DNA of 64,000 bases from a virus. The position numbers were made by a program, and so were the translations under genes. Positions 18,482 to 52,922 of this stretch are shown piece by piece (position 1 is the first letter of the stretch; every line of letters begins with the position of its first letter). The notes under the pieces were generated by a model that searched no databases, was not told where the DNA came from, and worked only from the letters and a program-made list of their open reading frames with translations. The stretch spans positions 1 to 64,000 of IMG/VR virus record IMGVR_UViG_3300037847_006162. One strand, given 5' to 3'.

Positions 18482-19170
18482 TGGGAAGCAATGCTGGACC
18501 TGATATAGTTGAAGATGGACTGGTCCTTTGCTTGGACGCAGCTAATGATCGAAGTTATCCGGGTGCGGGGACTACGTGGACTGATCTTGCAGGAAACAAT
18601 AATGGCACATTACACAATAGCCCCACCTTTGACACCGCGAATGCCGGTAGTATTGTATTTGATGGCACTAATGATCGCGTAGCAATATCACTAGGAAGTT
18701 TGCCAACACCTCAAAATTCTACTAATTTTACTTACGAGGCAGTTGTAAAGTTTGACTCGCTTGGATCGAGGACGATATTTTCTCAAGAGGCCGGATCGGG
18801 TACTGGTAGAATATTTCTTGGAGTGCATACTAATTCTAAACTCGTTACTTTTATAACTGGATCTGCCGAACAACCAGATTTTTCCGCATTGAGTACGGGT
18901 ACAATATATCATGTCGCTCTCATAGTATCTCAGACACAATTAATGCTGGAACCATCAATAGCTATTGCTTTGAATGGCGTGGTGGATAGTATCGCTTCAA
19001 CCGTTATCGGCTACACTGGAACTGGAGACATTAATATCGGCACAGAACCCGGTGCTGGTGGGGGTTTCTTAGACGGAAATGTTCTTACTGTTAGAATTTA
19101 TAATCGTCCTTTAGGTGAGAAGGAATTATTTCAAAACTATAGAGCTATAAAAGGAAGATATCAACTATGA
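18481..19170 (+). CDS. LamG/concanavalin A-like lectin protein 3, 229 aa
   Basis: Third tandem copy: VEDGLVLCLDAANDRSYPGAG, SIVFDGTNDRVAI, DINIGTEPGAGGGFLDGN and VLTVRIYNRPLGEKELFQNY. No signal peptide, so export would be as part of the virion or through lysis. Overlaps the DUF1501 gene by 4 bp, implying coupled expression with a Tat-exported protein. Confidence 0.85.
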   Translation: MGSNAGPDIVEDGLVLCLDAANDRSYPGAGTTWTDLAGNNNGTLHNSPTFDTANAGSIVFDGTNDRVAISLGSLPTPQNSTNFTYEAVVKFDSLGSRTIFSQEAGSGTGRIFLGVHTNSKLVTFITGSAEQPDFSALSTGTIYHVALIVSQTQLMLEPSIAIALNGVVDSIASTVIGYTGTGDINIGTEPGAGGGFLDGNVLTVRIYNRPLGEKELFQNYRAIKGRYQL

Positions 19171-22078: not shown

Positions 22079-22270
22079 ATGAGATGTTCAGAATGTGATA
22101 AAGAAATAAGTTGTGAAGAAAGCTTTAGATGTAGAATATGTTTTCTTTGGTTTTGTAAAAGCTGTTCTTTAAAACATTTTGGACTAAAAGAAAAGGATGG
22201 TAAAATCTACCACAAGAGTATTATTAAAAGCTTTTGGTGGATTTTGCAAAAAAGATTTTTCGGTAAATGA
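22079..22270 (+). CDS. Small zinc-finger protein, 63 aa
   Basis: Cys spacing CSEC...CRIC...CKSC plus a His (KHFG) looks like a treble-clef or B-box-like zinc module in the first 40 residues. The last 15 are hydrophobic and basic. Overlaps the following frame by 4 bp if that uses its first ATG. Function unknown. Confidence 0.65.
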   Translation: MRCSECDKEISCEESFRCRICFLWFCKSCSLKHFGLKEKDGKIYHKSIIKSFWWILQKRFFGK

Positions 22271-22290
22271 AATATTCAAGGAAGAGATTT

Positions 22291-22581
22291 ATGATTAAAA
22301 CACTAAGCTTAATGTTTTGTTTGGTACTTCCCACGCTAGATAACTCTATATGGGGAGATGCTATAACAGACCAAGAAAAATGCCAAGCGGAAGCAGACTA
22401 TATGATTAAGTATCACAAAAACTGTCATGTTGGTCCGTGTATCGGAAGATTTGAAGGTATGGGGTATAGTGTTAATGGAAAAATTCCAAACACCTGTGTG
22501 CCAAATCGTAAAATGAAACTTACAGGCGATGCTACTGCCAGAGATGGCAATAGAGTAGCTAGAGTAAGAAGCTGGAGGTAA
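22291..22581 (+). CDS. Secreted protein, 96 aa
   Basis: ATG 22291 lies just after AAGGAAGAG; an in-frame ATG at 22267, overlapping the previous stop, is an alternative. Signal peptide MIKTLSLMFCLVLPTL. The mature part has HVGPCIGRFEGMGYS and CVPN, reminiscent of a family of short Planctomycetes secreted proteins with a conserved GRFEGVG segment; this recollection is not checked. Its stop is directly upstream of the tmRNA gene. Confidence 0.7.
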   Translation: MIKTLSLMFCLVLPTLDNSIWGDAITDQEKCQAEADYMIKYHKNCHVGPCIGRFEGMGYSVNGKIPNTCVPNRKMKLTGDATARDGNRVARVRSWR

Positions 22582-22751
22582 AGCATGTATAAAGATTATT
22601 ATTGATGTTGTAGGAGACTGCGGGGCAGTACCGCACACCTCCACTTGCCAAACTAAGGGGGTGAAATAGATTCGATCCACAATATGATGTAGTATATCTC
22701 ATGCACTGGTTGATAGAAGGGCCAGTATAAAAATCTATCAAACTTTTAATT

Positions 22752-22781
22752 GCAGATGAAAATCTTGCTTTGGCAGCGTAA
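22752..22781 (+). other. tmRNA tag reading frame (ADENLALAA)
   Basis: GCA resume codon followed by GAT GAA AAT CTT GCT TTG GCA GCG TAA. The tag ends LALAA, as proteolysis tags recognised by ClpXP and similar proteases do, and closely matches the ANDENYALAA tag of E. coli. Confidence 0.95.
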
Positions 22782-22794
22782 GCTGTCTGGGGTT

Positions 22795-22828
22795 TGCCAG
22801 TACCTTATTATCCAAACTGGCATTTTTT
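22795..22828 (+). terminator. Intrinsic terminator of the tmRNA gene
   Basis: Stem TGCCAGT 22795-22801 with ACTGGCA 22816-22822, 14-nt loop, then six T. Confidence 0.92.
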
Positions 22829-47002: not shown

Positions 47003-48091
47003 ATGGGTATTCCAATAGTATACTTTAGAAGTAGTTCTTTTAATTGCCACAGAACTTGTCCCATGCAATTTTATACAGAGTATGTGCTGGGACTTAGAGG
47101 GTTAGGTAATAAGAAAGCAGATAAAGGTACAATAACCCATAAAATACTTGAGATAACAGCACTTTGTAAAAAGGCATCCCAAGACGGTATTAAAGTTATT
47201 GATGATGAAGATATTGGTGAAGTTTTTACCGATAACTATGACCCTGAATATTTAAATTCTATAGGTATCAGGGTTTATGAATACTACAAAAATATATTTA
47301 ATTACCACAAAGGGAAAAATGCTTGGAGAGATAGAGACTTTGAAGACTGCATGGGCTGGGCTTGGAAGGCTCTGAAATACAAAGATGGCATGTACGACCC
47401 AAGAAAAAGAAATGTTGTAGATGCAGAGCCACATTTTGATTTTGAAATACAAAAAGAATGGGCCAAATATGATTACCCAGAGTATGATTTAAAGGGCTAC
47501 TTATCATTGAAGGGTACTATTGATTTAGTGGCAGATATTGGGGACGGTGTGTATGAAGTGATTGACTGGAAAACAGGACAAAGAAAAGACTGGGCTACAG
47601 GTAAAGAGTATAATCAAGGAAATTTATTTAATAATCCACAGCTTAGAATGTATCATTACGCATGTAAGAAGCTTTACCCTCAAGCTCACACGTTTCTAAT
47701 GACCATTTACTTTATAAATACTGGCGGTCCATTCACTGTACATTTCCAAGACTCTGACTTAGAGCAGACAGAAGAGATTTTGAAAAAAAGATTTGAAGAG
47801 ATAAGAAATACAGATCAGCCAAATATTCTACCAAGAATAAGACCTAAAGATAGTTGGAAATGCAGAACAATGTGTGATGCTGGAAAGACTACATTTCAAG
47901 GAACGAACATTGAGCCAATTAAAGAACATCGTCCCGGACAAAGAACAAAGTATGGGGAAGTCATGAGCAAATGCGAACAGGTCAGATACATGATAAAATT
48001 AAAAGGAATTGATTGGGTGACTAACAATTACATGTCACCGGGGCATACTATTGGAAGATACGGTTCTGGTGGGGGAAAGGTTCAGGATTGA
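47003..48091 (+). CDS. RecB-like PD-(D/E)XK exonuclease, 362 aa
   Basis: Cas4/RecB-type fold. An N-terminal SSSFNCHRTCPMQFYTEYVL helix with Cys, KGTITHKILEI with its His, GTIDLVADIGDGVYEVIDWKTGQR (motifs II and III: D, D-x-K), and a C-terminal CRTMCD with further Cys that may complete an iron-sulfur cluster. Such proteins resect DNA ends for recombination. Stop overlaps the start of the polymerase gene. Confidence 0.85.
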   Translation: MGIPIVYFRSSSFNCHRTCPMQFYTEYVLGLRGLGNKKADKGTITHKILEITALCKKASQDGIKVIDDEDIGEVFTDNYDPEYLNSIGIRVYEYYKNIFNYHKGKNAWRDRDFEDCMGWAWKALKYKDGMYDPRKRNVVDAEPHFDFEIQKEWAKYDYPEYDLKGYLSLKGTIDLVADIGDGVYEVIDWKTGQRKDWATGKEYNQGNLFNNPQLRMYHYACKKLYPQAHTFLMTIYFINTGGPFTVHFQDSDLEQTEEILKKRFEEIRNTDQPNILPRIRPKDSWKCRTMCDAGKTTFQGTNIEPIKEHRPGQRTKYGEVMSKCEQVRYMIKLKGIDWVTNNYMSPGHTIGRYGSGGGKVQD

Positions 48092-49980
48092 TGAGATATA
48101 CTCCGCTACACGTTCATTCAGAATACAGCCTTCTTGATGGCCTAAGCAAATGTGAAGATATAGCAAAAAGATTGGAAGTTATAGGTTCTAATGCTTGTGC
48201 ATTGACAGATCATGGTTCAGTTTCTGGTGCTGTTGACTTTTCTAAACAAGCCAAATCTAATGGTATGCGTCCTCTATTGGGGTGTGAGCTTTATGTTTGT
48301 CCTGATGGGCAGGCAACAAACAGAACTAAAGAAAATAGCAAACTAGTACATCAACCCGTTATAGCAAAAAACTTTAAAGGATGGAAAGATCTACTAAAGA
48401 TAGTTTCTTCATCAAACAAAAAAGAGCATTTTTATCATAAGCCCAGAATAGACATGGAAATTATGTCTGAGGTGGCAAGCAATAAAAATTTAATTTGTTT
48501 CAGTGGTCATCTAGGATCAGTGTTGTCAAATGCTATTTGTAATGGAGATGAGCTTGACCCAGATTGGATGAAAAAGGGAAAAGCTATGGCAGAAAGACTT
48601 AGGTCGATGTTTGGCAAGGAAAACTTTTTTATTGAAATACAACTAATAGATTCTAGAATAAATACATTTGCAGCAACTGTCTCCGGTGCATTAAGAGATA
48701 TTTCAAAGGCCACTAAGATACCCTGTGTAGCAACTCCAGACGCACATTACTGCTCTAGGGAAGATGCAGAGGATCAACGTGTACTCTTATGTACGTACTT
48801 TAAAAAGAATATATCTCAGATACAAAGAGAAATAAAACAAGGGACCGCAAATCAATCATTAATAACATTTTTTAAATCAGATAATTACCACATACCTTCA
48901 TATGAAGATATGAAAGAATTTCATACAGATGAAGAACTACAAAACACAAATCTTATAGTTGATATGTGTGAAGATTATGATATTCTTAAATCACCAGAAC
49001 CACCTCAATTTGTTTGTCCAGATGGGATGTCTCCAGAAGAGTATCTCAGGAAACTTAACAGAGATGGCTGGAATAGAAAAATGCGTCATGTTGAAAAAAA
49101 TAGTGATGAGTTTATTGAATATGGTAAAAGGGTAAATAATGAGCTTGATGTCTTTACTTCTATTGGGCTTTCTAGCTATTTTCTTATTGTCGATGACATT
49201 CTTAATTTCGTTAGAAGCAAGGGATATATTACCGGCCCCGGAAGAGGTTCTGCTGCTGGTTGTATGGTTTCTAATCTACTGGGCATTACTCAGGTAGATC
49301 CAGTACCTTATAATCTTATCTTTGAAAGATTTTACAATGCAGGCAGAAATGCTCCCGGTAAAATATCTTGGCCTGATATTGACTTTGATATACCAAAAGC
49401 TGCTAGAGAAGAAACAATCGAATACATTAAAAGTAAATATGGAGAAGAGTGTGTTGCACAAATACAAACATTCCAAACACTAAAGGGAAAAGCTTCATTA
49501 ACAAGAGTAATGGGTGCTCGTGGCAATATCTCATTTGACGAACAAAAAGCTATTACAAAGTGCTTGCAAGATGAAGCAAAGGTATCTGATGAACTTAAAG
49601 ATATTGAAGAAGAATATGGATATTCATCTAGCATTTTATGGGCACTTGAAAATACACCCGATAAACTAAAACAGTGGTGTCATATAGGAAAAGAAGGAAA
49701 GCTAGAAGGAAGGCTTGCAAAAATATTTGAGCAAGCGATTAGGATTGAGCATACAAAAATTATTGCAGGCACACATGCTGCTGGTATTGTTATTTCGAGT
49801 AACCCCATTAGTGATTCATGCCCTATGGTATTAGACAGTAAAGGGAAAAGTTATCGTGCTGGATTTGACGGCCCTAGCTGCGAAGATTCAGGGCTACTTA
49901 AACTTGATTGTCTTGCAATTCGCGGATTAGATAAGGTAATGGATGTGGTTAATATAGTTGGTGGTGAAGACCTATGCTAA
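48091..49980 (+). CDS. DNA polymerase III alpha, N-terminal part (PHP and palm), 629 aa
   Basis: Start ATG 48091. PHP domain with HVHSEYSLLDG and TDHGSVSG; palm with GPGRGSAAG at 382, PDIDFD (Asp429, Asp431) and HAAGIVIS, then LLKLDCLAIRGL with the third catalytic Asp606. It stops shortly after that Asp, before the fingers. The rest is supplied by the gene at 51285. Two 1.0-1.9-kb genes thus replace one ~1.17-kb-codon gene. Both parts keep intact motifs, so it should work as a two-chain enzyme. Confidence 0.92.
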   Translation: MRYTPLHVHSEYSLLDGLSKCEDIAKRLEVIGSNACALTDHGSVSGAVDFSKQAKSNGMRPLLGCELYVCPDGQATNRTKENSKLVHQPVIAKNFKGWKDLLKIVSSSNKKEHFYHKPRIDMEIMSEVASNKNLICFSGHLGSVLSNAICNGDELDPDWMKKGKAMAERLRSMFGKENFFIEIQLIDSRINTFAATVSGALRDISKATKIPCVATPDAHYCSREDAEDQRVLLCTYFKKNISQIQREIKQGTANQSLITFFKSDNYHIPSYEDMKEFHTDEELQNTNLIVDMCEDYDILKSPEPPQFVCPDGMSPEEYLRKLNRDGWNRKMRHVEKNSDEFIEYGKRVNNELDVFTSIGLSSYFLIVDDILNFVRSKGYITGPGRGSAAGCMVSNLLGITQVDPVPYNLIFERFYNAGRNAPGKISWPDIDFDIPKAAREETIEYIKSKYGEECVAQIQTFQTLKGKASLTRVMGARGNISFDEQKAITKCLQDEAKVSDELKDIEEEYGYSSSILWALENTPDKLKQWCHIGKEGKLEGRLAKIFEQAIRIEHTKIIAGTHAAGIVISSNPISDSCPMVLDSKGKSYRAGFDGPSCEDSGLLKLDCLAIRGLDKVMDVVNIVGGEDLC

Positions 49981-49999
49981 TAAACAAGGAGCAAATTAT

Positions 50000-50692
50000 A
50001 TGAAGAATAATCGTTGGATAATATGTTTTGATTTTGAAACTGATCTTCCAGATAAGGACTTGTGCAACCCTGTCCAATTGGCAGCGGTTCCAATTGACCC
50101 AGAAACATTAGAAGTTAAAAAAGATCAAGCTTTTAATGCTATGATAAAACCAGAAGGAATTGATAAACCAGAATACTTTGATGTTCCTAAAAGAGAGGCG
50201 ACTATAAATTGGCACGCACAAAACTATGGAATTACATACGAGGAAGTCATTGAAAAATGGAAAACTGGTGTTTCTGAAAAGGTTGCTTGGAAAAACTTTG
50301 CAACCTATTGCAAAAAATACACCGTAGACAAAAAACCCGGACAATGGTTTCCAGAACCAATACCTGCGGGGTATAATATCACTGGGTTCGATATTCCAAT
50401 CGCTGAGAGGTTGTGCAAAAAGCATAAAATTAAAATGCCATTCTCATCAGTAACAAAATTAGATGCTATGGATAATTTATTCTGGTGGTTTGAAAATCTA
50501 GAAGAACCATATGATTTTAAAATGGATACTTGGAGAAAGTTCTTTGGAATTAAAATGAAAGGTGGAATAGCACATGACGCACTGACTGATGTTTTTGAAG
50601 AGTCTGCTATTGTTACTAGATTTATGAAGTTTCATAGAAAACAATCTTCTGTTGGTAAATTTAAAGGAAGCTTTGCGAATGTCTCGATATAG
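50000..50692 (+). CDS. DEDD 3'-5' proofreading exonuclease, 230 aa
   Basis: DnaQ/RNase T-like. ATG 50000 with AAGGAG at 49986-49991 is preferred over the longer frame that overlaps the polymerase. ICFDFETDLPD is Exo I (Asp11, Glu13), YNITGFDIPIAERL is Exo II and GIAHDALTDVFEESAI is Exo III, of the DEDDh type. Lying between the polymerase halves, it is likely the epsilon-like subunit. Confidence 0.88.
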   Translation: MKNNRWIICFDFETDLPDKDLCNPVQLAAVPIDPETLEVKKDQAFNAMIKPEGIDKPEYFDVPKREATINWHAQNYGITYEEVIEKWKTGVSEKVAWKNFATYCKKYTVDKKPGQWFPEPIPAGYNITGFDIPIAERLCKKHKIKMPFSSVTKLDAMDNLFWWFENLEEPYDFKMDTWRKFFGIKMKGGIAHDALTDVFEESAIVTRFMKFHRKQSSVGKFKGSFANVSI

Positions 50693-50966
50693 GTTAGCAT
50701 TGGCAATTATTTTTGTTTTGCTTTGTATAGTAGACAATATATTTACATATGAAGTAACAAGATGGCCTTTATACCAAGAAATAGCACCGGTCGCAGTCCT
50801 CATGCTTTCAATACCATACGGACTTTGGATTCAAAAGTTTTGTGTGTGTCTGGGTTTGTATTATTTTAGAGAGAAGATTAGTAATCAATTTTTGTGTGTT
50901 TTAAACGCAGCTATGCTGTTCATAGTTTGCAACAACGGCTACTTATATTGTAGGGTAATATTTTAA
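50679..50966 (+). CDS. Multi-pass membrane protein, 95 aa
   Basis: ATG 50679, with AAAGGAAG upstream, overlaps the exonuclease end. Three hydrophobic stretches (LALAIIFVLLCIVDNIF, AVLMLSIPYGLWI, LNAAMLFIVCNNGY). Its place between replication genes is odd; it may be a later insert. Unknown function. Confidence 0.65.
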   Translation: MSRYRLALAIIFVLLCIVDNIFTYEVTRWPLYQEIAPVAVLMLSIPYGLWIQKFCVCLGLYYFREKISNQFLCVLNAAMLFIVCNNGYLYCRVIF

Positions 50967-51295
50967 TGTATGAATATAATGCTAAAGTTGATCGTGTTGT
51001 TGATGGAGACACTGTAGACTTTATTGTTGATCTTGGATTTAATATCAATATAAAGATCAGGACTAGACTGATTGGTGTTGACACACCAGAAAGAGGACAT
51101 CCAGACTGGAAAAAGGCAACAGCCGAATGTGCAAGATTGCTTTCTTCTGTAGCAGATATTCACAGTGCTTCTATTGGAAAACCAGAACACTGGGTAAAAA
51201 TAAAAACAACGAAAACAGGGAAATATGGTCGTTGGCTTGTAGAAGTTGATGGTGTAACAGATAAATTAGCAGAGACTTGGCCCTATGAAAAATAA
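50966..51295 (+). CDS. Staphylococcal-nuclease-like thermonuclease, 109 aa
   Basis: OB-fold nuclease of the SNase family: KVDRVVDGDTVDFIVDLG (calcium-binding Asps), RLIGVDTPERG (catalytic Arg and Glu) and TGKYGRWLVEV (second Arg). About 30 residues shorter than secreted thermonucleases and without a signal peptide, so it acts in the cell. Overlaps the previous stop by 1 bp and the polymerase C-part by 11 bp. Confidence 0.87.
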   Translation: MYEYNAKVDRVVDGDTVDFIVDLGFNINIKIRTRLIGVDTPERGHPDWKKATAECARLLSSVADIHSASIGKPEHWVKIKTTKTGKYGRWLVEVDGVTDKLAETWPYEK

Positions 51296-52922
51296 CTATA
51301 TTGAGTTCCCATGTGGTTGTAAGTTTGAAAAAAACTCAAAAGGTCTTCCAATATTCAATCCTAACATTGAAGCACTGCCATTGCATTGTGAAAGAACTTG
51401 GGATATGATTTGCGAAGGGAATACCAAGGGTGTATTTCAGCTTGAATCTCAACTCGGTCAAAGCAAAGCAAAAGAAGTAAAGCCAAGAAGTATAGAAGAA
51501 CTATCAGATCTGATTGCAATCATCAGGCCGGGGTGTGGTGATGCAATTGTAGACGGTAAATCTCTTACCCAGCACTATATTGATCGTAAAGCAGGAAGAG
51601 ATGATGTCAAATACTTTGATCCCAGACTAAAACCAATATTAGAACCAACTTATGGAATCTTGGTATATCAAGAACAAGCTATGCAAATAGCACAACTGGT
51701 TGCTAATTTTTCTTTAGGACAAGCAGATAATCTTCGTAAGGCTATTGGTAAAAAGAATGTTGATCTTATGGCCAAGGTAAAGAAAGAATTTTTAGAAGGT
51801 GCTATTGCTCAAGGAAACTTTACTGAAAAAGATGCTGAAGAGATTTTTAGTTGGATCGAGAAGTCTCAAAAATACTCGTTTAACAAATCTCACTCAGTAA
51901 GTTACGCACTCAATGGATATCAAACTGCTTATGCCAAAGCCCATTTCCCTAGAGCTTTTTTCACCTCATATCTTCGTCATGCTGATGGTAAACCAAAGCC
52001 ATTTGAAGAAATAAATGAATTAGTAAATAACGCTAGACTTATGGATATAGACGTGCAACCACCTAGCATTGTTAATATGAACTCTAATTTTTGTTTAGTA
52101 AATAAACTTCCAACATTTGGTCTAGTGAATGTTAAAAGCGTTGGTATGAGTGTGTTTAAGCAAATAGATGCAGTAGTAAAGCAAAATTCATATAATGTGT
52201 CTGATATGGGCTGGGATAAATTTTTAATGAAGGTTGGTAGGTATATTAAAAGTAATTCTTTTGAATCTATGATTAGAGCCGGTGTTTTTGATTGCTACAA
52301 GAAACAAAGAAATAAAATGCTTTATGACTTTAACATATATAAAGAGTTAAAAGATTTTGATAAAGACTATCTTACAAAAACAAAGTGTAAAACATTTGTA
52401 GAAGCTCTTGAAGATTTGATCCCATACATTAAAAAGACTAAAAGAGCTACAGTGCATACGGAAAGACATATTGAGCAAGTTAGAGGGTCAATATCAGCAC
52501 TAAAATCCCCACCATATGAATTGATTGACAGGCCAGCTTGGAGGGCAAAGCAAGAGAGAGATTTGCTTGGCGTAGAAATAACATGCTCAGAAGTTGATGA
52601 GTATGATACAACAGATGGAAATTGCAGTTGTAGAGAATATGTAAAAGGTTTTGAATCTAATTACATAGCTATAGCAGCACAAATAAGTGACATTAGAGAA
52701 TGGAAGATCAGGGGCGGAAAACACAAGGGAGAGAAGATGGCATTCTTAAAAATTAGTGACAGTTCTTGTTCGCTTGATAATGTTACTGTTTTTTCAGAAG
52801 ACTGGCAAAAACTAAAAAGTAAAATTGTTATAGGTAAGATATTGCTTCTTAGAGGAAACAGAGATAAAAATCGAGGAAGTTTTTTAGTAAAACAAGCACA
52901 AAACCTAGAACAATGTATATAA
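51285..52922 (+). CDS. DNA polymerase III alpha, C-terminal part (fingers, OB), 545 aa
   Basis: Starts inside the SNase gene without a strong ribosome site, so translation is probably coupled. It begins with a CGC-containing segment of ~35 residues, then TKGVFQLES, SDLIAIIRPGCGD, GILVYQEQAMQIAQLVANFSLGQADNLRKAIGKK and FNKSHSVSYALNGYQTAYAKAHFP, which follow DnaE order after the palm. Near the C-terminus is an OB-fold (AAQISDIREWKIRGGKHKGE). Sum with the N-part is ~1174 residues, the normal DnaE size. The intein site at KSQKYSFNKSH is uninterrupted. Confidence 0.9.
   Translation: MKNNYIEFPCGCKFEKNSKGLPIFNPNIEALPLHCERTWDMICEGNTKGVFQLESQLGQSKAKEVKPRSIEELSDLIAIIRPGCGDAIVDGKSLTQHYIDRKAGRDDVKYFDPRLKPILEPTYGILVYQEQAMQIAQLVANFSLGQADNLRKAIGKKNVDLMAKVKKEFLEGAIAQGNFTEKDAEEIFSWIEKSQKYSFNKSHSVSYALNGYQTAYAKAHFPRAFFTSYLRHADGKPKPFEEINELVNNARLMDIDVQPPSIVNMNSNFCLVNKLPTFGLVNVKSVGMSVFKQIDAVVKQNSYNVSDMGWDKFLMKVGRYIKSNSFESMIRAGVFDCYKKQRNKMLYDFNIYKELKDFDKDYLTKTKCKTFVEALEDLIPYIKKTKRATVHTERHIEQVRGSISALKSPPYELIDRPAWRAKQERDLLGVEITCSEVDEYDTTDGNCSCREYVKGFESNYIAIAAQISDIREWKIRGGKHKGEKMAFLKISDSSCSLDNVTVFSEDWQKLKSKIVIGKILLLRGNRDKNRGSFLVKQAQNLEQCI

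Follow-up and report, generated by a model that had tools for sequence, protein, structure and literature searches.

The window analysed here, a stretch of 64,000 nt that forms part of a 68,675-base IMG/VR virus record, contains a circularly permuted tmRNA gene on the plus strand at 22583-22781, and the sequence of this gene, set beside those of its relatives, makes it very probable that the gene is functional and serves a large tailed phage as a permuted (two-piece) tmRNA. A cmscan search of the whole window matched the Rfam family RF04321 (tmRNA_permuted) over the full length of the model at 84.3 bits, against a curated cut-off of 47 bits, with an E-value of 1.1e-14 that refers to the whole window and the Rfam library; this is the sole Rfam match above cut-off anywhere in the window. 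The 3' half of the gene precedes the 5' half with a spacer between the two, as the first-pass annotation had described. That annotation had also proposed putting the locus to the permuted-tmRNA models of Rfam and to ARAGORN. Among the former, RF04321 is above its cut-off and the two clade models are below theirs: beta_tmRNA (RF01850) aligns full-length with the gene at 48.3 bits against a cut-off of 84, and alpha_tmRNA (RF01849) reaches 47.8 bits against 50. ARAGORN missed the gene at default settings but, at a relaxed threshold, reported a low-scoring permuted tmRNA with the tag ADENLALAA at the same locus. Of the eight short-spacer genes put to RF04321, this one scores lowest. When 22583-22703 is folded, the lowest-energy structure is the tRNA-like domain, at an energy only modestly below that of shuffled sequences (z -1.89; matched or surpassed by 10 of 200 shuffles).

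Organisation of the gene

All parts of the gene lie on the plus strand. The tRNA-like 3' piece (22583-22643), delimited by the RF04321 match, the coordinates and the fold, comprises the 5' strands of P2, the T-arm, the acceptor 3' strand and A73. Its T-arm (22619-22635), placed by RF04321 and by pairing in 15 sequences, has the stem TGCGG/CCGCA (22619-22623/22631-22635) and the loop GGCAGTA, which is the alphaproteobacterial form. The acceptor 3' strand CACCTCC follows at 22636-22642, placed by pairing in the same sequences, with U70 at 22640 and A73 at 22643. The intervening sequence (IVS), read directly from the sequence, is CTTGCCAAACTAA, 13 nt at 22644-22656, and no CCA is encoded, the gene having ACTT instead. 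The acceptor 5' strand GGGGGTG, identified by RF04321 and by pairing, occupies 22657-22663 and places G3 at 22659, such that the acceptor stem carries G3-U70. The D-loop motif AGATTCGA, with A18 and G19, was located at 22668-22675 by RF04321 and by parsing of the loops; the GATTCGA noted in the first-pass annotation is present at 22669-22675, but it belongs to this D-loop side, the T-loop being GGCAGTA. In the RF04321 alignment the 3' strands of P2 fall at 22679-22704, where ACAATAT pairs with ATGTTGT at 22605-22611 and CATGC pairs with GCATG at 22583-22587. Pseudoknot 1 (PK1; ACTGG/CCAGT and GATAG/CTATC) lies at 22705-22739, again from pairing in 15 sequences. The tag frame at 22752-22781, supported by the reading frame and by the relatives, encodes ADENLALAA in codons 22752-22778, beginning with a GCA resume codon, and ends with a stop codon at 22779-22781. 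The positions assigned at the outset to the 13-nt spacer, the acceptor stem with G3-U70, GATTCGA, the resume codon and the tag proved exact to the base.

Downstream of the tag, the alignment to beta_tmRNA places a hairpin, GCCAGT/ACTGGC, followed by six T, at 22796-22828, which could be part of a pseudoknot-2 domain or a terminator. The first-pass annotation took it for a terminator, and the hairpin and the T run are indeed present, but a terminator scan with a loop limit of 8 nt did not flag them. By eye, the equivalent 3' hairpin lacks a long T run in L003, L009, L261 and L265 and has a T run in L270 and L271. Given that relatives keep the hairpin, some of them without the T run, its primary role is probably that of a stem in the 3' pseudoknot domain, and it may also serve as a terminator. 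Upstream, an ORF of 104 aa (22267-22581, plus strand) ends one base before the RNA match; it matched no PHROG and no Pfam family.

Conservation of the RNA structure and the tag

The window gene was aligned, with the spacer removed, with 14 IMG/VR relatives to give 15 distinct rows. The relatives were collected by sequence patterns and by protein search and are thus a non-random sample; L016 and L289 (near copies of L003 and L286), the same-contig duplicates L001, L002, L006, L259, L260, L262, L283, L284 and L288, and L282/L285 (another phage, with no Rfam tmRNA match) were left out. In this alignment the acceptor stem is paired in 105 of 105 cells with changes on both sides at 3 of 7 pairs, and the T-stem in 71 of 73 cells with such changes at 5 of 5 pairs. 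PK1 is paired in 145 of 148 cells (stem 1, 75/75; stem 2, 70/73) with both-side changes at 8 of its 10 pairs, 4 of 5 in each stem, which bears out the pseudoknot noted in the first-pass annotation. Across the acceptor stem, the T-stem and the PK1 stems together, 16 of 22 pairs show changes on both sides. As a control, the 3' partner was displaced by one or two columns, upon which only 8 to 26 of 61-75 cells pair in PK1 stem 1, 13 to 38 of 59-75 in PK1 stem 2, and 31 to 41 of 73-75 in the T-stem, the last with up to three both-side changes; in the G-rich acceptor 57 to 61 of 75-105 cells (54-77%) still pair, with no both-side change. The compensated acceptor stems of L286 (GGGGATG/CATCTCC), L287 (GGGGGCG/CGCCTCC) and L270 (GGGCGTG/CACGTCC) are clear single supports of the pairing. 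The inner P2 is paired in 94 of 104 cells with both-side changes at 4 of 7 pairs, while the alignment is doubtful in the outer P2 stem (39/75 cells paired) and in the PK2 hairpin (61/88 cells, against 57/87 when shifted by one).

The identity elements and the tag are kept as well. G3-U70 is found in all 15 sequences, the window included, and a nine-residue tag with an Ala start and an AA end in 14 of them, with synonymous changes; the tags of the window and its relatives include ADENLALAA, ADESLALAA, AEPCLALAA, AEPSFALAA and AGRNVAMAA. In the remaining sequence, L269, the script found no tag as the Ala start fails, and DVETYALAA is seen by eye. The pattern of substitution indicates that the acceptor stem, the T-stem and PK1 are kept through compensatory changes and that the gene is under selection as a tmRNA.

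Phage context

The sequence of the window recurs in a second IMG/VR record of 126,253 bases, with 100% identity over 9316 bases around the gene and 99.97% over the first 20 kb of that record. The 126-kb record matches the large terminase family PHROG 2 (E 3.1e-20; G001:109858-111603, L296), and the window encodes a DnaB-like helicase, a primase, a UvsX-like recombinase, a ribonucleotide reductase and a dUTPase, together with a DNA polymerase in two ORFs that is DnaE-like by its matches. Because the same sequence stands in a record with a terminase match, and because of these phage replication genes, the tmRNA gene lies in phage DNA, as had been claimed. The polymerase and helicase proteins have only distant matches among named phages, the 6 kb around the gene gave no DNA match in 50,697 phage records, and the RNA region itself found short, weak pieces only in the phage collection. 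No structural PHROG was matched among the 33 window ORFs tested, and neither the 68,675-base nor the 126-kb record contains a tRNA gene in a search whose control was positive in 14 of 14 genomes.

Some further features of these records were observed. The stretch matched to the terminase (G001:109858-111603, L296) contains eight stop codons, as an intron or other insert would give. The two polymerase ORFs (window 48088-52922) correspond to positions 41-615 and 623-1074 of PHROG 405, and between them lie an exonuclease-like ORF and a small nuclease ORF. DNA relatives of this small nuclease gene (50966-51295, PHROG 452) occur in L009, L266 and L268, where they precede the tmRNA by about 0.4-0.65 kb. 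An assignment of the host from the T-loop was rejected, given that the loop varies among relatives (GGCAGTA, TGCAATT, TTCGACT, CTCGTTA and others) and that Melnitz also has GGCAGTA.

Predicted function and alternative explanations

The window gene probably functions in trans-translation together with the SmpB of the host. In the proposed sequence of events the transcript would fold its tRNA-like domain, host RNase P would cut at 22656/22657, and host 3' processing would trim away what is left of the 13-nt spacer beyond A73 (22643). The gene does not encode CCA, so the 3' end would have to be completed by the CCA-adding enzyme of the host, upon which the host alanyl-tRNA synthetase would charge the RNA through G3-U70. 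Host SmpB would then deliver it to stalled ribosomes, which would add ADENLALAA to the broken protein and be freed. Expression, processing, charging and benefit to the phage are what we infer from the sequence. The search for smpB that had been proposed gave no match in the two records of the window phage, nor in any of 18 phage records (those two and 16 related ones, many of them fragments; control positive in 10 of 14). As no SmpB was found in the phage, the RNA would depend on the host; the suggestion that the phage supplies its own ribosome rescue is thus plausible, but only in part.

The same findings could be read in another way, with the RNA as an anti-tmRNA decoy whose tRNA-like domain would occupy the SmpB of the host and so prevent rescue there, in the manner of the tRNA-like-only RNA of mycobacteriophage DS6A. 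The missing CCA and the very short spacers (5-19 nt in 6 of 8 genes) could leave the acceptor closed and uncharged, no SmpB was found in the phage records, and inhibition by a DS6A-like RNA is cited in PMC4131195 and PMC11915505. However, a decoy would need neither the tag frame, which 14 of 15 sequences retain with synonymous substitutions, nor PK1, which is kept by compensatory changes, and it is the retention of both that makes a decoy less likely; an inhibitor of the DS6A type has no tag frame, and the window gene has one. On balance a decoy is unlikely.

Two further explanations would deny the gene a role in the phage altogether. It would be quite improbable for the gene to be a decaying, unexpressed passenger copy taken from a bacterium, given that its RF04321 score is above cut-off and that compensatory changes and a kept tag run through related phages, even though the scores below the clade cut-offs (47.8 against 50 for RF01849, 48.3 against 84 for RF01850) and the relaxed threshold required by ARAGORN are what such a copy might show. 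That the window is bacterial DNA misfiled as virus is more improbable still, to the point where it can hardly be entertained: the terminase match in the 126-kb record with the same sequence, the phage replication genes of the window and the fact that the close relatives are other IMG/VR virus records all speak against it, and in its favour stands the lack of a structural PHROG match among the 33 tested ORFs. A working tmRNA gene of a phage is therefore preferred over all three.

Relation to known two-piece tmRNAs

It had been supposed that a permuted tmRNA in a phage may be new, which the literature contradicts. A two-piece tmRNA was described in phage Melnitz in 2022 (PMC9004378), and that paper counts tmRNA genes in 402 of 18,146 phage genomes, with 133 unique structures, of which 53 are two-piece and 50 of these 53 come from marine or aquatic samples. 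PMC11915505, which is the source of RF04321, gives 79 tmRNA sequences from phages. The window gene is another case of this already reported type, and its novelty as such is low. Melnitz (a Methylophilales phage, MZ577097, 45984-46436; host recorded as Methylophilales) likewise encodes a permuted tmRNA with the T-loop GGCAGTA and a tag frame ending in ALAA (ANDNYVPVDYALAA); unlike the window gene, it encodes CCA, followed by a spacer of about 142 nt, and its tag has 14 residues. The alphaproteobacterial permuted tmRNA (RF01849, for example that of Pelagibacteraceae, L147) shares with the window gene the order of parts, the T-loop GGCAGTA and A18 in the D-loop, but the 3' domain of the window gene is not alpha-like, because its RF01849 match covers only model positions 40-278 of 355. 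The betaproteobacterial form (RF01850) has a similar 3' domain and differs in T-loop and tag.

Pattern scans show how common these features are. The acceptor 5' strand with the D-loop was found in 19 IMG/VR contigs, 13 of which match RF04321, five a standard tmRNA and one neither. The matches listed for the T-arm pattern in IMG/VR comprise 126 viral loci, two of which are the window's own sequence; in 118 of them the acceptor 5' strand follows within 260 nt. A scan of bacterial genomes found the T-loop GGCAGTA in at least 118 stretches, those listed mostly from Pelagibacteraceae, and the acceptor 5' strand is present in 115 of the 118 among the matches listed. The consensus T-loop of RF01849 is also close to GGCAGTA, and the loop was rejected as a novelty since both the genome scan and the RF01849 alignment show it to be common in alphaproteobacteria. 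By comparison, ACTT in place of ACCA was found, among the matches listed, in 7 of the 126 viral loci, all from the window's close group and two of them the window's own sequence, and in 0 of the 118 bacterial loci; a separate scan for ACTT found seven contigs. To judge from these scans, ACTT instead of ACCA is specific to the window's close group. The missing CCA together with a 5-nt spacer was also considered as a sign of an unprocessed RNA, which is weak, given that, according to PMC11915505, CCA is not encoded at this position in every case and that, by eye, the tRNA genes adjoining the tmRNA in L003 and L009 also lack an encoded CCA.

An endonuclease-like gene in the spacer of related tmRNAs

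Spacers differ in length: 13 nt for the window gene, 5 nt in L003, L009, L016 and L019, 19 nt in L258, 112 nt in L261 and 604 nt in L259. In seven phage contigs (L265-L271, L259 being the same contig as L265) the site of the window IVS is occupied by an endonuclease-like ORF, the IVS there being 602-612 nt. The ORF of the 604-nt spacer has 180 residues, with four nearly invariant cysteines near the N-terminus and an endonuclease-VII-like core, and matches PHROG 3322 (endonuclease, 2.3e-28) and PHROG 1035 (endonuclease VII, 3.5e-16). It matched no Pfam family; against the PDB the single protein found nothing and a profile gave weak matches only, and its predicted model is poor (pLDDT 59.7). A copy of this gene was not seen in the window phage, in a search run without a positive control. 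All seven spacer ORFs are open over their full length, and dN/dS is 0.10-0.37 in the 17 of 21 pairs that allowed its calculation, which indicates that the endonuclease-like gene is under purifying selection. Its stop codon falls within the acceptor strand GGGGGTGA in five of the seven and slightly further into the tmRNA in two, and by eye its leader repeats the acceptor-like CACCTCCACC in L266, L268 and L270.

A protein search with the spacer endonuclease matched 25 stretches, of which 17, the source locus included, encode a relative. In seven of these (L265, the source, and L266-L271, which are 56-90% identical to it) the gene sits inside a permuted tmRNA, in the order T-arm and acceptor 3' strand, endonuclease gene, acceptor 5' strand, PK1 and tag (by eye in L269). 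The Rfam matches of these gene-filled tmRNAs are partial and below cut-off in L265-L268 (30-46 bits) and absent in L269-L271, and the identity of the two halves as tmRNA rests on reading of the flanks and on the alignment. In six others (L272-L276 and L278; 37-43% identity) the start of the gene lies shortly beyond the 3' terminus of a standard tmRNA (RF00023, 92-109 bits); in one (L279) a standard tmRNA lies on the opposite strand, and in three (L277, which is cut 5 nt before the match, L280 and L281) no tmRNA was found. The spacing is alike in both arrangements: the six standard genes have 70-75 nt between the end of the tmRNA match and the protein match, with an in-frame ATG 6 nt earlier in all six by eye, giving 64-69 nt, and the seven permuted genes have 63-73 nt from A73 to the first ATG. 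Among named phages 819 records match the endonuclease, eight of them over at least 80% of the protein. The crAss-like records cr56_1, cr128_1, cr6_1 and cr50_1 (53% match) have no Rfam tmRNA within about 1.5 kb of it, and a group I intron lies near the endonuclease relative in two of these four; because the crAss-like records viewed show no tmRNA nearby, the wider endonuclease family is not tied to tmRNA.

Other spacers hold other contents. In L032, L056, L074 and L106 a 238-nt spacer contains an ORF that would encode 69-74 residues, including a hydrophobic stretch; the L056 version gave no match in PHROG. The spacer of L071 contains a tRNA-Val by ARAGORN, the only one among 45 spacers of at least 60 nt, and PMC11915505 mentions two other guests, a tRNA-Ala and a repetitive element, each in a different spacer. 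The 112-nt spacer of L261 shows a tRNA-like T-arm by eye and shares its opening CTTAATTTTCG with the endonuclease leader of L270; its insert may be a remnant or a different guest.

Alleles that carry or lack the gene at a single site, as looked for under homing, are represented by L265/L259 (604-nt spacer) and L261 (112-nt spacer with other content), which come from sister phages: the pieces flanking the gene are 84-92% identical and one further piece 77%. L261 and L265 are also related to the window phage, which they match at 77% identity in a stretch of up to 1.2 kb starting at window position 19167, with the tmRNA placed differently. Filled alleles differ from the window jointly in T-arm and D-loop. 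A scan by tag sequence, which ignores the tRNA-like part, found 11 contigs, four with and seven without the endonuclease gene; the T-loops of the latter are GGCAGTA in four, TGCAATT in two near-identical contigs and TTCGACT in one. Across the seven filled loci GGCAGTA occurs in none and CTCGTTA in three. Given that CTCGTTA also occurs in the unfilled tmRNA-like arrangement of L282 and L285 (not scored by Rfam) and that the unfilled alleles vary in T-loop, the link between the gene and the type of T-loop is suggestive only. Within 241 candidate permuted tmRNAs parsed by script, a sample dominated by one T-loop and one lineage, G55 occurs with A18 in 233; two further G55 cases were misparsed and show AG by eye, and in the six T55 cases position 18 is T, G or C and never A. 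The T-loop and the D-loop thus tend to change together in these sequences, a trend that fits the contact between positions 18 and 55 in tRNA.

We take the spacer gene to be a homing endonuclease whose insertion site lies immediately after the tRNA-like 3' end of tmRNA genes, with the window as an empty allele. Under such homing, insertion in the gap would do the RNA no harm, since processing removes the gap in any case. The fuller proposal is that a homing lineage occupies the gap of phage permuted tmRNAs and inserts after the tRNA-like 3' end of two-piece and one-piece genes alike, the window being an empty allele, with the elbow (T-arm and D-loop) co-converted and matched T/D pairs moved between phages; this we favour by a small degree. 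A full-text search of a library of open-access papers, judged on titles and the openings of abstracts, found no report of a homing endonuclease in a permuted-tmRNA spacer. PMC11915505 does describe homing-endonuclease genes of the LAGLIDADG type in group I introns of tmRNA T-loops, which likewise place an endonuclease gene inside a tmRNA gene. Those genes lie in a self-splicing intron of the T-loop, whereas the gene described here lies in the spacer of the permuted gene in relatives and not in the window, and Rfam found no group I intron in the gene-filled loci.

Implications

The window gene is a divergent example, missed by ARAGORN at default settings, of a ribosome-rescue RNA borne by a phage, and the phage brings this RNA even though a search of its 126-kb record turned up no tRNA gene. 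The relatives of the window gene suggest that mobile genes gained a harmless place to settle when the tmRNA gene was split. Such a slot would involve the permuted tmRNA in the traffic of genes among phages, and would offer a direct test of homing at an RNA gene.
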